Part shown: positions 3,622 through 29,569 of the stretch, in pieces
Layout of the letters: each line of letters begins with the position of its first letter
Numbering within the stretch: position 1 is the stretch's first letter
Source: an uncultured Rhodospirillales bacterium
Lineage (GTDB): Bacteria > Pseudomonadota > Alphaproteobacteria > ATCC43930 > CGMCC-115725
Reading direction: 5' to 3'
Length of the DNA stretch: 64,000 nucleotides
Assembly: GCA_903822185.1 (NCBI GenBank)
Contig: CAIJOA010000011.1
Coordinates: 620,001 to 684,000, forward strand
The notes under the pieces: generated by a model
The model's database searches: none
The model's input: the letters and a program-made list of their open reading frames with translations, nothing else
Told to the model about the DNA's origin: nothing
Position numbers and translations under genes: made by a program

Positions 3622-4794
3622 TCAGGCCGCGACGGCGGCCTTGCTTGCTTCCGCGAAAGCCCAGTCGAGCCACGGCAACAGCGCCTCGACATCGCTGCGC
3701 TCGATCGTCGAGCCGCACCAGATGCGCAGACCCGGCACGGCATCGCGATGACCCGCGATGTCGTAAGCGACGCCTTCGGCATCGAGCAGCGATTCGATCT
3801 TCTTGACCGCAGCCCATTGCTGATCGACCGGCAGCTTGTCGAACCCGTCGGCGACGATCTTGAGGCAGATCGAGGTGCTGGAACGAATCTTCTTATCTTC
3901 GACGAGGAAATCGACCCACGGCGTCTTTTCGACCCAGGTGGAAATCGCCGCGAGATTGCCTTCGGTGCGCGCCTTCAATGCCGGCAGACCGCCGATCGAC
4001 TGCGCCCATTTGAAGCTATCGATCGCGTCTTCGACGGCGAGCATCGAGGGCGTGTTGATGGTCTCTTCGTTGAAGATGCCTTCGCTGAACTTGCCTTTGG
4101 CGGTCAGGCGGAAAATCTTCGGCAGCGGCCAGGGCGGCGTATAGCTTTCCAGCCGCTCGATCGCGCGCGGCGAGAGCGCCAGCATGCCGTGCGCCGCTTC
4201 GCCGCCCAGCACTTTCTGCCAGGACCAGGTGACGACGTCGAGCTTGTCCCAGGGCAGATCCATCGCGAAGGCGGCCGAGGTCGCGTCGCAAATCGTCAGG
4301 CCCTTGCGGTCGGCTTTGATCCAATCGCCGCTCGGAATGCGCGCACCCGAGGTCGTGCCGTTCCAGGGGAAGACGACGTCATGATCGAAATCGACCGCAG
4401 CAAGATCGGGGATCTGCCCATAGGGCGCGCGCATCACGCGCAGATCTTTGATCTTCAATTGTTTTTCGATGTCGGTGACCCAGCCTTCGCCGAAGCTTTC
4501 CCAGGTCAGCGCATCGACGGGACGCGCGCCCAGCATCGACCACAGCACCATCTCGACGGCGCCGGTATCGGACGCCGGCACGATGCCGAGGCGATAATCC
4601 TTCGGCATGCCGAGGAGTTCGCGCGAACGGGTGATGACTTCTTTGAGCTTGGCCTTGCCGAGCTTTGAACGGTGGGAGCGGCCGAACAGGCCATTCTTCA
4701 GCGCATCCACGGAATAACCGGGACGCTTGGCACAGGGACCAGAAGAAAAATTGGGGCAGGCTGGCCGGCTTTGCGGCTTCGTCGTCATGATCAC
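3622..4794 (-). CDS. serC: Phosphoserine aminotransferase (alphaproteobacterial type)
   Basis: 390 aa; [17 protein letters not shown] and [23 protein letters not shown]; upstream of serA. ATG at 4788 may be the true start. Confidence 0.94.
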
Positions 4795-4850
4795 TATTCC
4801 TTCCAGAATAGATGCACCCCGGTGGGGGGGTGTGGCCCGCCGGGGAAACT
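4795..4850 (-). promoter_or_regulatory. Candidate structured 5' leader of serC
   Basis: CCCCGGcGGGccacaCCCccccaCCGGGG hairpin just upstream of the serC SD (GGAAGGA); position matches the alphaproteobacterial serC leader motif. Confidence 0.4.
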
Positions 4851-24374: not shown

Positions 24375-24540
24375 GAGAGAATGAAGCCACCTCGGCCGTC
24401 GGTATTGGTAACCCTCGTTGCCCGCTTACGCAGGTGGAAACCATGTAACGAAACCAGGGCTCCGTCAGGGACAGTCTCCTAGAGGTATTTATCGGCCCCG
24501 GGGTGACGCGACCTAACGCACCGTGCAGCCCCATTCTCTC
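24375..24540 (-). ncRNA. ssrS: 6S RNA candidate
   Basis: Terminal stem GAGAGAATG/CATTCTCTC closing about 166 nt; CCCCGGGGCCGATAAATACCT resembles the E. coli 6S CCCCTGAGCCGATATTTCATA block; located just downstream of zapA. Confidence 0.8.
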
Positions 24541-24544
24541 GGAC

Positions 24545-24874
24545 TTATATGTGGGACGTTTCGAGCCGCGCCGCAACTGCCTCGATGCGGGCGGCCAAGC
24601 GATCGACGCCCGTGGCGAGAGCGCGGCCGTCGCTGGGAGGCGTCTGCGCCGCGACCGAACGGAGCGCTTCGTTGGCTTCGGCCAGCTCGTCGGCGAGGAC
24701 AAGCGCCGCCAAAACCAGCAGCCGGGCCTCGCCGGCTTGGCCGACTTGGCGGGCGAAAGCAGCCACTTTGCCGTCGATTGTCTGGGCGAGATCGCGAATC
24801 CGCTGTTCTTCGCCTTCGTCGCAGGAAACCGGATAGGCGCGGCCGTTAATGGTGACGGAAACTTGCGGCATCAC
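24545..24874 (-). CDS. zapA: Cell division protein ZapA
   Basis: 109 aa; MMPQVSVTINGRAYPVSCDEGEEQRIRDLAQTIDGKVAAFARQVGQ. Confidence 0.92.
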   Translation of the reverse strand: MMPQVSVTINGRAYPVSCDEGEEQRIRDLAQTIDGKVAAFARQVGQAGEARLLVLAALVLADELAEANEALRSVAAQTPPSDGRALATGVDRLAARIEAVAARLETSHI

Positions 24875-25185: not shown

Positions 25186-25323
25186 GGCGTGGACGATTAT
25201 GGTCAACGGGAGATGAACGACCGACCGAGCCGAGGGGGTCCGGAAGGATCGTAGGAAACAGACGATGTCGATAGATCGAAGCTCGTATATCCTCATGGTC
25301 GTTGGCGTAAGGAGTAACTTGCG

Positions 25324-26475
25324 ATGACCAGCCCGGCACCTAGCTGGCAGCTAGATCGCCTCTCGACCAGCGCGCGCGAAGCGGCTGAAATCGCGTCTCT
25401 TGGCGCGGGTTTGTCGCTTTCGTCCTGGTTGAGCCGGCTTATTAGCGAAACCTGCGCTGCCGAGGGCGTTGCGCCCCCGAGCGAGCCGCCGAAAATCCTC
25501 GAATTCACCCGCGAACCACGCGAACGGCCCGTTATGGCCCCGCCGCGGGTCTTTGCACCCGCCCCCGCCCCGGTCGTTCAGGCACCGGTTGCCCCGGCGC
25601 CCGTTGCCGAGCCTCCGCGCGTCGTCATGCCGAATTTCGCCGCCGAGCCGCCGCATATCATGCCGGCCCCGATGCCGCAGCCCGCGCCGATGCCGGTGGC
25701 ACCGCCCGCAGCACCGGTCATGCGCCCCGCCGCCGAACAGCAGCCGGTCTTTAATCCGGCTCCGTCTCCCCTCTTTGCACCGGCGGCCCCGCCGGTGATG
25801 ATGCCGCTTCGTCCGGCCGCCGCAAACGCGCCGATGCCGACCCCAGCGCCCGTCGCTGCCGCGCCGGCACCGCAGGCACCGGTCGTTCCCGGCGCGACGA
25901 TGCTGGCCACGAGCTCGATGGCGCCCGCCAATCTCGGCACACGTCGCGGCGAAGATCTTCCCGAAGCACTGCTGAGCGACATCGCAACGCGCGGCGTGCG
26001 TCAGCCGATCGTCGTTCGCCGTGTCGCCAATAATCCCGAGCGTTACGAGATCATCTGCGGTCATCGCCGCTGGCGCGCCGCACAGCGTGTCGGTTTGTCG
26101 TCGCTGCCCGCGACGGTCGTCACGCAAGACGATGCGACCGCGATCCTTACCTCGCTCGCCGAAAATCTTCAGTCCGGCAGTTTGGCCGCGATGGATGAAG
26201 CCCAGGCCTATCTGCGTCTGCTGACGCAATGCGCCGTCGATGCTTCGGCCGTCACCGCCGCGACCGGCAGCGATCGCAAGCACATCGTGCAGACCATGCG
26301 TCTTCTGGGCCTGCCCCCGTTGGTGCGCCATCTCGTCGGCGCCGGCACCTTGTCGCGCGAGCATGCTTACTTGCTCCTCGATGCGCCCAATCCTGAAACC
26401 TTGGCCGATGCCATTCTCGCCGAAGGCTTGAGTGTTGAAGCGGTTAAGCAGCGTCTCACTGGAGGGACGAAGTGA
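25324..26475 (+). CDS. ParB-domain (ParB/Spo0J nuclease-fold + HTH) protein with PodJ-like N-terminal motif and Pro/Ala-rich linker
   Basis: 383 aa; VRQPIVVRRVANNPERYEIICGHRRWRAAQRVGL, SLAENLQSGSLAAMDEAQAYLRLL, HTH RKHIVQTMRLLGLPPLVRHLVGAGTLSREHAYLLL; no parA nearby. Confidence 0.85.
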   Translation: MTSPAPSWQLDRLSTSAREAAEIASLGAGLSLSSWLSRLISETCAAEGVAPPSEPPKILEFTREPRERPVMAPPRVFAPAPAPVVQAPVAPAPVAEPPRVVMPNFAAEPPHIMPAPMPQPAPMPVAPPAAPVMRPAAEQQPVFNPAPSPLFAPAAPPVMMPLRPAAANAPMPTPAPVAAAPAPQAPVVPGATMLATSSMAPANLGTRRGEDLPEALLSDIATRGVRQPIVVRRVANNPERYEIICGHRRWRAAQRVGLSSLPATVVTQDDATAILTSLAENLQSGSLAAMDEAQAYLRLLTQCAVDASAVTAATGSDRKHIVQTMRLLGLPPLVRHLVGAGTLSREHAYLLLDAPNPETLADAILAEGLSVEAVKQRLTGGTK

Positions 26476-28715
26476 TGATCCGCGACATGCCGCCCCTCGC
26501 CCTTGAAGGCATCGATCCTTGGGAAAAAGTCCAAGTCGATTCCTCCGCCCGGCGTCTTGCTGAATATGCCGCTGCCGCTGCCGGTCTTGCCGTCGAGGAA
26601 TGGCTGGAACGCGCCATTCGCCGCGCATGCCCCAGCGCCTTCCGCAACGCTCCGGCTCCCGTGCCGCAGCCGGTCATCGTACCGCCGCCGCTAGCGCCGC
26701 GTCCGAACCTCTTCAACGCCGCGCCGCAAGCCGCGCCGGCGCCGACATCTGCACCGCCCGAGATCGAAGCGTCACTCGCCTCGCTTCTCGCGATGGCGCA
26801 GCGTCAACTGCAACCGCAGACCCCGCCGCCGGCCGCACCGATCGAACGTGCCCCGGTCGAGCAGTCCTATATCGAACAAGCCTATATCGCTCAGCAGCCG
26901 GCCCCCGCGCCCGTTGCGCCTCCGTTGCCGTCTTTTCTGACGGCCGCGCCGATCGCTTACGAACCCGCGCCGACGATGCGTGCGGCTCCGGCCCCGATGG
27001 CGCCGCAGCAGCCGCAGATGCCGGAACCGCCGGTCGCACGTCATGCGCCGACGATCGCCGAGCGTCTTGCTCAGCATCATTTCGACGAACCCGAATACGA
27101 AACCGAACCGGCACCGCTTCACGACGACCGCTTCCAGCCTGATTGGGCGGAGCGCGATGTCGCGCCGCGCATGATGGCCTATGCGGACGAAGAGGAGATG
27201 GCACCGCGGAAATCGAAGAGCCGCTTCAAGCTGTGGGCGCCGCGCGAACCTTCCGTTCAAGGCGACGAACCCGTCGATGCGCCGTTGCGCGGCGAACGCG
27301 ATCATGACTTCGACCGCGATCAAGACCGTAACCAGGACCGTCCGTCTGCGAATCCCCTTGCCCGCAAGAGCAAGCGCAGCCTCGCCCTGATCGCAGTCGG
27401 CATCGCCCTCGCCGTCACCGCAGGCGCGGTTACCGCGCAGTTCCTCATCCCGAACCGTCAGAGCTTGTCGCGTTTCGCGTCGGCCCCGAACACGCCGGTC
27501 AATAACAGCCCCGCGCCGATCTTCGCGCCGGCGCCGAGCAATCCGCCGCCGCTGCCGTCGTTCAACGACCGCACCAACGGCCCGTCGAGCTACACCAATA
27601 ACGCGTCGGCTATCCCGAGCCTGCCGCAGGACAACAGCGCGCCGGCCATGCAGGCCGCGCCTGTCATGCCCCCGCCGCCGCTGCCCTTGCCGACACCGAT
27701 GCCGGCGCAGCAGAGCAACAACGCTATGACCGCACCGACCAATCTTCCGCCGGTGCCGGGTCTGCCGACCTTGTCGAATGCGCCGACGCAAAGCGCCGCT
27801 TTGCCGCCGACACTGCCGCCGGCACCGATGCAGACTCCGACGGTGAGCCCGCTTGCAACCCGCGCACCCGTACAGCCCACGCCTGCCGTCCCGATGATGG
27901 ATAGCGATTCGTCGGCGATGCAGCCACCCGTGGCGATGGCGAAACAACCGCCGGCCGCGAAAACCAAAGCTGGTGCAGCGCCAACCGTTGCCACCGCGAC
28001 ACCCGCTCCCGCCGCGACCTCAGGTGCAAAGACCGCCAAGATCGAAAGCGATACGGCTCCGACCGATCCCAAGGCGCTCGCGCCCTGGCTCGAAGCCCGC
28101 GCCAAGACCGGTGACTCGATCGCGCAATATCGTCTCGGCGTTCTTTATTCACTGGGCCAAGGCGTGACGCAGGATTATCAGCGCGCCGCGTCGCTGTTCA
28201 AATCAGCCGCCGATGGCGGTGTCGCCGAAGCGCAATACAATGTCGCCGTGATGTATGGCGAAGGTCTCGGCATCGGCCGCGATCCGGCCCAAGCGGTGAA
28301 CTGGTATCGCAAGGCCGCCGGCCAGGGCAATGCCAACGCCGCCTTCAATCTCGGCGTCGCCTATTCGAACGGCATCGGCATCCAACAGAACATGGATCAG
28401 GCCGCGCAGTGGTTCCGCCGCGCCGCCGGTTCGGGCATCGTCAACGCCCAATTCAATCTCGGCCTGCTCTACGAGCGCGGCGACGGTGTGCCGGTCTCGC
28501 AGGTCGAAGCTTATGCTTGGTATTCAGCCGCCGCCAATCATGGCGACACGGGCGCCGGTCAACGCCGCGATCGTCTCGCCAGCACGCTCTCGCCCTCGAC
28601 GCTTAAGGAAGCGCAGGCGCGGGCGCAGCAAGTCCTCACGACGATCCAGAACGGCGCGAACAACGCTCCCGCCGGTGGCATCACCTCCGCCACCCCGGCC
28701 GCAGCTCGCCGCTAA
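26475..28715 (+). CDS. PodJ-like single-pass Sel1-repeat protein
   Basis: About 746 aa; N-terminal motif like the preceding protein, TM SLALIAVGIALAVTAGAVTAQFLI, Pro-rich region, 3-4 Sel1 repeats (AQYRLGVLYSLGQGVTQDYQRAASLFKSAADGG...); TGATG coupling to the upstream gene (GTG at 26472 also possible). Confidence 0.85.
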   Translation: MIRDMPPLALEGIDPWEKVQVDSSARRLAEYAAAAAGLAVEEWLERAIRRACPSAFRNAPAPVPQPVIVPPPLAPRPNLFNAAPQAAPAPTSAPPEIEASLASLLAMAQRQLQPQTPPPAAPIERAPVEQSYIEQAYIAQQPAPAPVAPPLPSFLTAAPIAYEPAPTMRAAPAPMAPQQPQMPEPPVARHAPTIAERLAQHHFDEPEYETEPAPLHDDRFQPDWAERDVAPRMMAYADEEEMAPRKSKSRFKLWAPREPSVQGDEPVDAPLRGERDHDFDRDQDRNQDRPSANPLARKSKRSLALIAVGIALAVTAGAVTAQFLIPNRQSLSRFASAPNTPVNNSPAPIFAPAPSNPPPLPSFNDRTNGPSSYTNNASAIPSLPQDNSAPAMQAAPVMPPPPLPLPTPMPAQQSNNAMTAPTNLPPVPGLPTLSNAPTQSAALPPTLPPAPMQTPTVSPLATRAPVQPTPAVPMMDSDSSAMQPPVAMAKQPPAAKTKAGAAPTVATATPAPAATSGAKTAKIESDTAPTDPKALAPWLEARAKTGDSIAQYRLGVLYSLGQGVTQDYQRAASLFKSAADGGVAEAQYNVAVMYGEGLGIGRDPAQAVNWYRKAAGQGNANAAFNLGVAYSNGIGIQQNMDQAAQWFRRAAGSGIVNAQFNLGLLYERGDGVPVSQVEAYAWYSAAANHGDTGAGQRRDRLASTLSPSTLKEAQARAQQVLTTIQNGANNAPAGGITSATPAAARR

Positions 28716-29569
28716 ATCAAACGCCCCGCCGCGATCCACCATCGCGGCGGGGCTTTCGCTTTCATCGTTGCAGCGGCGGCCTCGGCCGCCGTTTGCGATT
28801 CAAACAGACCAAAGCACGTCGCACCGCTGCCGCTCATTCGGGCGAGCAGGGCATTTTGCGCTTCGAGTTCTTTCAGCACATCGCCGATCGCGGGCACGAT
28901 ACCCAGCGCGGCTTCGGTCAGATCGTTGTGACGCGCCGCCAGCAAAGCAGCCAGCTGCCGCGCATCCTTCGGCGCTTCTTCAAAACGTGATGCCGGCGTG
29001 AAACCGCCACGACGCGCCTTGAAGACGGAGACAGTCGGCAAGGCGATACCCGGATTGACCAACACCAATCCCGCACGCGGCAACGACGGTGCGGCCTCGA
29101 CCAATTCGCCGGTGCCGCCGAAATAAGACGCGCGTTCCGCAAGGCACACCGGCACATCGGCGCCAAGCTTCAAGGCCAGTGCAGCGAGTGCGGCTTCATC
29201 GGGCTGTGCCTGCCAAAGACCGCACAACGCTTTTAAGGTCGCCGCCGCATCGCTCGACCCGCCGCCGATCCCGGAAGCGATCGGAAGGTTTTTCTCCAAC
29301 GTCAAAGCGGCATTGGGCTTGCGGCCCAGCAACGCGGCCAGCATCTCGGCAGCACGCCAGGCGAGATTGGTCGGATCGTTATCCTTCAAGTCGCCGGCGA
29401 ACGGCCCGGTGATCTTGAGGCTGAGGCCCGATGCCGACGCGGCGGAAAGACGATCGCCGATATCGGAAAAAGCGGCGAGGCTGTCGAGCAGGTGATAGCC
29501 GTCATCGCGTCGGCCGACGACATGCAGATAAAGATTGAGCTTTGCGGGCGCGGGCCACCAACGCGGCAT
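28712..29569 (-). CDS. ispE: 4-diphosphocytidyl-2-C-methyl-D-erythritol kinase
   Basis: 285 aa; AKLNLYLHVVGRRDDGYHLLDSL, LPIASGIGGGSSDAAATL. Confidence 0.95.
   Translation of the reverse strand: MPRWWPAPAKLNLYLHVVGRRDDGYHLLDSLAAFSDIGDRLSAASASGLSLKITGPFAGDLKDNDPTNLAWRAAEMLAALLGRKPNAALTLEKNLPIASGIGGGSSDAAATLKALCGLWQAQPDEAALAALALKLGADVPVCLAERASYFGGTGELVEAAPSLPRAGLVLVNPGIALPTVSVFKARRGGFTPASRFEEAPKDARQLAALLAARHNDLTEAALGIVPAIGDVLKELEAQNALLARMSGSGATCFGLFESQTAAEAAAATMKAKAPPRWWIAAGRLI
28723..28753 (+). terminator. Hairpin terminator for the PodJ-like gene, lying within the ispE 3' coding region
   Basis: GCCCCGCCGCGAT-CCACC-ATCGCGGCGGGGC followed by TTTCGCTTTC. Confidence 0.6.

Follow-up and report, generated by a model that had tools for sequence, protein, structure and literature searches.

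A predicted ribbon-helix-helix motif shared by a degenerate ParB paralogue and a transmembrane Sel1-repeat protein in an alphaproteobacterial operon

Introduction

In Alphaproteobacteria, ties of the chromosome to the cell poles and the envelope are known mainly from Caulobacter, in which they involve PopZ-ParB and PodJ-PopZ. The polar localisation factors PodJ and PodJL have an N-terminal motif, WSVKGV..EAREAAK.AAR..GMTLG.WL..I, which is followed by a cytoplasmic tail, one transmembrane (TM) helix and Sel1 repeats; Caulobacter PodJ itself probably carries this motif. Ribbon-helix-helix (RHH) domains are obligate dimers that often bind DNA, and the fold, which is found in antitoxins and regulators such as HicB, TacA, FitA, Arc and CopG, is classically a DNA-binding one. 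Chromosomal ParB of the ParABS system contains the domains ParB_N and HTH_ParB. Outside parAB, the ParB paralogue Noc, for which membrane association is proposed, regulates its own membrane binding through CTP (PMC12704722). The ParB-like adaptor PadC of Myxococcus xanthus is linked to a cytoskeletal partner (PMC12704722).

Here, we analysed a two-gene locus in a window of 64,000 nucleotides, the whole stretch of DNA under analysis, from an uncultured Rhodospirillales bacterium. The first gene encodes ORB, a ParB paralogue, and the second encodes SELW, a Sel1-repeat protein with one predicted TM helix. The two proteins begin with a homologous motif that is most likely, from models and profile matches, an RHH, which is a dimer-forming fold. 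The pair is kept across related Alphaproteobacteria, and this conservation suggests that ORB and SELW may join, linking a protein of the DNA-segregation type to the envelope.

Results

Organization of the locus

The features of the locus are collected in Table 1. The stop codon TGA of ORB occupies 26473-26475, and SELW starts either at ATG 26475, giving the TGATG arrangement, or at GTG 26472, giving a 4-bp overlap. An earlier, sequence-only reading had described the two ORFs as coupled, and the coordinates and the overlap were confirmed; all intact orthologous pairs examined have overlapping starts. Its statement that no parA lies nearby was likewise borne out: the window contains no parA, the best match by tblastn having an E of 0.13. 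The inverted repeat at the convergent ends of SELW and ispE is one of three terminator-like repeats found, against 4.0 expected in shuffles. No link of the locus to a defence system was detected by PADLOC. Two structured RNAs were seen in the window, a 6S RNA (RF00013, 66.3 bits) at 24380-24534 (-), where it directly follows zapA on the minus strand, and a serC leader RNA (RF00517, 51.3 bits) at 4790-4842 (-).

Table 1 Features of the orb-selw locus, in window coordinates.
Feature	Position	Strand	Description or basis
zapA, divergent upstream neighbour	24545..24874	-	neighbour status kept only in the window's family
TAAGGAG ribosome-binding site of ORB	25308..25314	+	identical at five related loci (zapA-orb intergenic alignment)
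ORB	25324..26475	+	383 aa: predicted RHH domain, Pro/Ala-rich linker, degenerate ParB_N, ParB HTH; without C-terminal ParB dimer domain
ORB N-terminal motif, residues 8-46	25345..25461	+	predicted ribbon-helix-helix
ORB ParB_N (CTPase-fold) domain, residues 214-283	25963..26172	+	Pfam
ORB Box II GHRRWRA, kept	26059-26079	+	motif comparison
ORB Box III ENLQS, without arginine	26161-26175	+	motif comparison
ORB ParB HTH domain, residues 287-377	26182..26454	+	Pfam
TGATG stop/start overlap, translational coupling	26473..26477	+	sequence; overlap in orthologues too
SELW	26475..28715	+	746 aa: predicted RHH domain, Pro-rich cytoplasmic linker, one TM helix, Pro-rich linker, four Sel1 repeats
SELW N-terminal predicted RHH motif, residues 16-52	26520..26630	+	profile comparison with ORB motif
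SELW predicted TM helix, residues 303-321	27381..27437	+	hydropathy; only hydrophobic segment
SELW Sel1 repeat region, residues 540-700, predicted periplasmic	28092..28574	+	Pfam
ispE, convergent neighbour	28712..29569	-	constant neighbour of RHH/Sel1 clusters, 18 families
GC-rich inverted repeat like a bidirectional terminator, convergent SELW/ispE ends	28723..28753	.	consensus match only

The N-termini of ORB and SELW are homologous

The N-termini of ORB and SELW, which had been read as homologous from the letters, aligned with a BLASTP E of 0.006 for the pair alone and with an hhalign profile-profile probability of 97.5 and an E of 5.4e-12; this profile comparison had been named beforehand as a check on motif similarity. 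Searches in both directions agreed. An HMM built from ORB N-termini only found SELW as the single other good match among the 510 ORFs of the window (E 3.5e-6), and the reverse HMM, from the SELW motif, found ORB, again as the single good match among the 510 (E 1.5e-6). None of the 4962 composition-preserving shuffles that were scored reached the real score of 26.8, the best shuffle scoring 12.5. These shuffles, together with the reciprocal HMM matches, rule out a chance likeness of Ala-rich segments. The 4.27 Mb genome contains no further copy of the motif, and the two copies are adjacent.

The pair is conserved and belongs to a wider cluster

Conservation of the pair in related genomes was upheld by a neighbourhood survey. 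The ORB-type motif is found in 12 of the 39 genomes of the window's family (f1), and the SELW-type motif adjoins it in all 12; no genome of the 39 has the ORB type without the SELW type. The remaining 27 genomes have neither motif, five of them showing only weak or unrelated motif matches. The order in the family is zapA - [orb-selw] - ispE. The adjacency to zapA, to which the sequence-only reading had drawn attention, holds in this family; elsewhere it does not, ispE being the constant neighbour, and zapA was rejected as a general feature of the locus.

With a profile of 64 motifs, 98 of the 388 genomes sampled from the class were found to carry the motif; the class sample was drawn evenly, not exhaustively, and many of the genomes in the analysis are incomplete metagenome-assembled genomes. 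Two or more copies occur in 39 genomes, and in the 38 multi-copy genomes with listed positions the copies are no more than about 4 kb apart, as read from the table. Across the class, the cluster has up to three genes with the predicted RHH (one for a small or ParB-type protein, one for a coiled-coil protein and one for a TM-Sel1 protein) that converge on ispE, with TPR and ETF-QO genes also at the convergent side where this was mapped. In 18 families, ispE has a motif gene as its immediate neighbour. Five families (f1, f9, f18, f80 and f115) have a ParB-type RHH protein in the cluster, and in f65 a ParB-like gene on which no RHH was detected precedes the Sel1 gene. In several clusters elsewhere, the first position is held by small RHH-only proteins of about 56-97 aa. 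The genome G010 has a fusion (L048:6902-8152), a single ORF of 416 aa that is composed of the ORB motif, ParB_N and HTH, followed by a SELW-type motif. This fusion directly adjoins ispE, and its locus lacks the TM and Sel1 parts.

The shared motif is predicted to be a ribbon-helix-helix

When the 64 motif sequences were compared one by one with Pfam, the leading families were HicB (10 members), NikA-like (8), TacA1 (5), PSK_trans_fac (4) and FitA-like RHH (3), every one of them an RHH family, with RuvA_C (5) as the main other repeated match; the single E-values are weak. The two window motifs alone gave no Pfam match even at E 10, and a PDB sequence search with the motif returned only weak, partial, non-RHH matches (best E 0.014). 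An AF2 model of the motif, built from four sequences only, has a pLDDT of 72, with two confident helices (83-92). Compared with the PDB by Foldseek, RHH proteins made up nearly all of the best 44 matches, including Arc, CopG, AtaR, FitA, TacA, NikA, ParG, AmrZ, PutA and MatP, most with an rmsd of 0.6-1.3 over about 31-40 residues and every one with an E-value above 1. The N-terminal residues of the model form a short helix, not the strand expected of an RHH.

Two proteins carry tandem copies of the motif, a 261-aa protein (L083:6159-6944) and a Sel1 protein (L082:2544-4649), an arrangement that fits a domain working as a dimer. The proposal of the sequence-only reading that the motif serves as a meeting module gains support from these two proteins and from the G010 fusion. 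A copy of the motif was also seen outside any ispE cluster, at the C-terminus of a 442-aa protein (L100:5969-7297, G146) that is TniQ-like by eye. The RHH antitoxins and regulators have the fold that is predicted for the window motif. They differ in that the window motif is fused to scaffold or ParB domains, adjoins no toxin gene, and has a predicted strand (WQLDRLS in ORB, WEKVQVD in SELW) that is not strongly basic.

The motif might instead serve DNA binding. ORB, with its RHH and HTH, would in that case repress its own operon, and SELW would be a membrane-tethered partner or regulator; the classical role of the RHH and the presence of two DNA-binding-type domains in one short protein speak for such autoregulation. 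However, the upstream region has no notable operator palindrome, only one 7-bp inverted pair, and past the ribosome-binding site it is poorly conserved between genera. A TM-Sel1 protein would also be an unusual repressor, and the strands of both motifs are of the character described above; we consider this reading unlikely.

ORB is a degenerate paralogue of chromosomal ParB

ORB matched ParB_N in Pfam with an E of 7.5e-18, over profile positions 28-95 of 95 only, and HTH_ParB with an E of 2e-14. Compared with the CTP motifs GERR (Box II) and ENxQR (Box III), ORB has GHRR and ENLQS, so that GxxR is kept and the Box III arginine is lost. The QPR box is absent. The ParA-binding motif LG[RK]GL, present in the ParB encoded on contig C46 of the same genome, is absent from ORB, and the C-terminal dimer domain ParB_C, matched in the C46 copy and in the orphans of f115 and f9, gave no match in ORB. 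A full-length model of ORB from a two-sequence alignment (pLDDT 44) was discarded.

Contig C46 holds the canonical rsmG-parA-parB operon of the genome. The only two exact parS sites (GTTTCACGTGAAAC / GTTYCACGTGRAAC) of the genome lie at C46:9024 and 10454, just upstream of the canonical parB, and none was found in or near the window. The idea that ORB is the only chromosomal ParB is thereby ruled out, and its orphan status, as a ParB_N and HTH protein outside parAB, stands. In a tree of ParB_N and HTH, two label changes divide the orphans from the canonical copies, and the test of one common orphan clade does not reject it (p-AU 0.29). Three of the orphan rows sit on long branches, which leaves depth and order in this tree uncertain. 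By sequence, ORB is not the segregation ParB; it is a fast-evolving paralogue of the chromosomal protein, with which the orphan group shares ancestry. In one 93%-complete genome (G056:C45, L083), the only HTH_ParB gene found is RHH-tagged, the canonical copy being missing or unassembled.

The orphans form a series of decay. Those of f115 have ParB_N, HTH and ParB_C, with GERRWRA, ENMQRQDL or a close variant, and the recognition helix GKSRSH. The f18 orphans have the same motifs, without ParB_C. The window ORB belongs to genus g1 of f1 and has the altered boxes given in Table 1. Its g9 orthologue has GRRRW and ENLGE, with Box III broken, and in the sister genera g7 (173 aa) and g8, ParB_N is gone entirely and the RHH and HTH are kept. 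The recognition-helix arginine is kept in g1 and is replaced by M in g9, by P or Q in g7 and by E or K in g8. The sequence-only reading had called ORB a DNA-binding ParB-like partner. The ParB-like part of this description holds, with ParB_N and HTH present; as ORB has lost the Box III arginine, the QPR box, ParB_C and the ParA motif, and sister genera have deleted the CTP domain, DNA binding by ORB cannot be assumed.

The comparison with Noc bears on a further reading, in which ORB would be a Noc-like or origin-anchoring ParB. It would be a functional clamp that loads onto DNA at sites of its own and that SELW carries to the membrane, and the nucleoid would in this way be coordinated with division. 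Noc, as a ParB paralogue with membrane binding, is a precedent (PMC12704722). The window ORB keeps the HTH and the GxxR of Box II, the orphans of f115 and f18 have intact CTP and recognition motifs, and zapA is adjacent within the family. Like Noc, ORB lies outside parAB; unlike Noc, it has a degenerate CTP site and would depend on a separate TM protein to reach the membrane, and its score against the Noc NCBIfam model TIGR04285 is 103.8 bits, below the cut-off of 315. The motifs missing from ORB, the whole CTP domain missing from g7 and g8, the replaced recognition-helix arginine and the lack of exact parS in or near the window all weigh against a clamp, which we regard as improbable. PadC differs from ORB as well, as it keeps the ParA-binding motif and binds CTP; ORB is without that motif and carries the predicted RHH.

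Stepwise ParB loss could also mean that ORB is a decaying relic that persists only as a carrier of the RHH, with SELW doing the work of the module, and the RHH-only proteins that hold the first position in other clusters agree with this. Yet dN/dS lies near 0.18-0.39 in ORB and 0.22-0.36 in SELW, the HTH of ORB equals the RHH in conservation (78-89% identity within genera), and the orthologues have an intact reading frame; the chance that ORB is a relic seems small. The RHH, HTH and Sel1 regions are conserved and the linkers evolve fast. As judged from these substitution patterns, ORB and SELW are under purifying selection, and the ParB part has decayed under selection.

SELW resembles PodJ in layout

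SELW matched Sel1 in Pfam (4.9e-39, 4 repeats). A Lys/Arg-rich stretch before the predicted TM helix indicates that its N-terminus is probably inside. The sequence-only reading had likened SELW to PodJ and PodJL. The likeness holds for the layout of a single TM helix with the Sel1 repeats C-terminal of it. It fails in other respects: the long cytoplasmic coiled coil is replaced, as read from the sequence, by a Pro/Ala-rich linker, Pfam found no C-terminal peptidoglycan-binding domain in SELW (the relatives L081 and L045 have one), the gene lies in a ParB-type operon beside ispE, and the motif is not specific to PodJ. The name PodJ is thus an analogy for SELW, not a membership.

PodJ-like ORFs of other families (L045 and L077) share the motif, L045 being composed of the motif, Sel1 and PG_binding, and long PodJ-like ORFs of about 900-1200 aa in L045, L060, L077 and others begin with it. 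The N-terminus of PodJ-type scaffolds may therefore be an RHH; this link draws on relatives with PodJ-like architecture and on the general picture of PodJ given in the Introduction. A plasmid scan for PodJ-type relatives gave Sel1 cross-matches or nothing, and the open-access literature that was searched yielded no paper that links PodJ to Sel1, RHH and ParB in this way.

Discussion

The best reading, to which we give about an even chance, is an RHH-mediated envelope scaffold, SELW, with a ParB-derived cytoplasmic partner, ORB. The locus would be a two-protein module from a family of alphaproteobacterial envelope scaffolds that carry an RHH tag. SELW would be bitopic: a flexible tail would bear its cytoplasmic RHH, a single TM helix would follow, and the Sel1 repeats, in the periplasm, should bind a partner there or in the wall. 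ORB, the ParB paralogue, would have acquired the same RHH at the N-terminus. Once co-translated, the pair would most likely join by way of the RHH, as homo- or hetero-dimers, and such pairing would place the ParB-derived domain at the membrane. In f115 and f18, in which the ParB part is intact, the module could dock a parS-binding CTPase, and hence the origin region, on the envelope scaffold. In the window lineage the CTP switch has decayed or been lost, so ORB is probably a non-switching adaptor or a weak DNA binder there. Outside the family, a ParB-type gene is absent from most clusters, so the module does not require the ParB partner.

We propose more tentatively, as a possibility that we would not yet favour, that this is an undescribed module in which the RHH acts as a protein-protein connector. 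RHH-Sel1 scaffolds would recruit an RHH-tagged second ParB by hetero-dimerisation, docking parS/origin DNA at the envelope; the ParB partner of the window, having shed the CTP switch, would be a pure adaptor, and the N-terminus of PodJ would be an unrecognised RHH dimer domain.

Relative to the ties known from Caulobacter, the locus offers a different and simple wiring, in which a small, predicted dimer domain occurs both in a paralogue of ParB and in a Sel1 scaffold that spans the membrane. The operon is conserved in its family, and related clusters are found in many other families. It provides a natural series of a ParB that loses its CTP switch yet keeps its operon partner, which bears on the reuse of ParB folds, and it leads to a proposed fold for the N-terminus of PodJ-type scaffolds.
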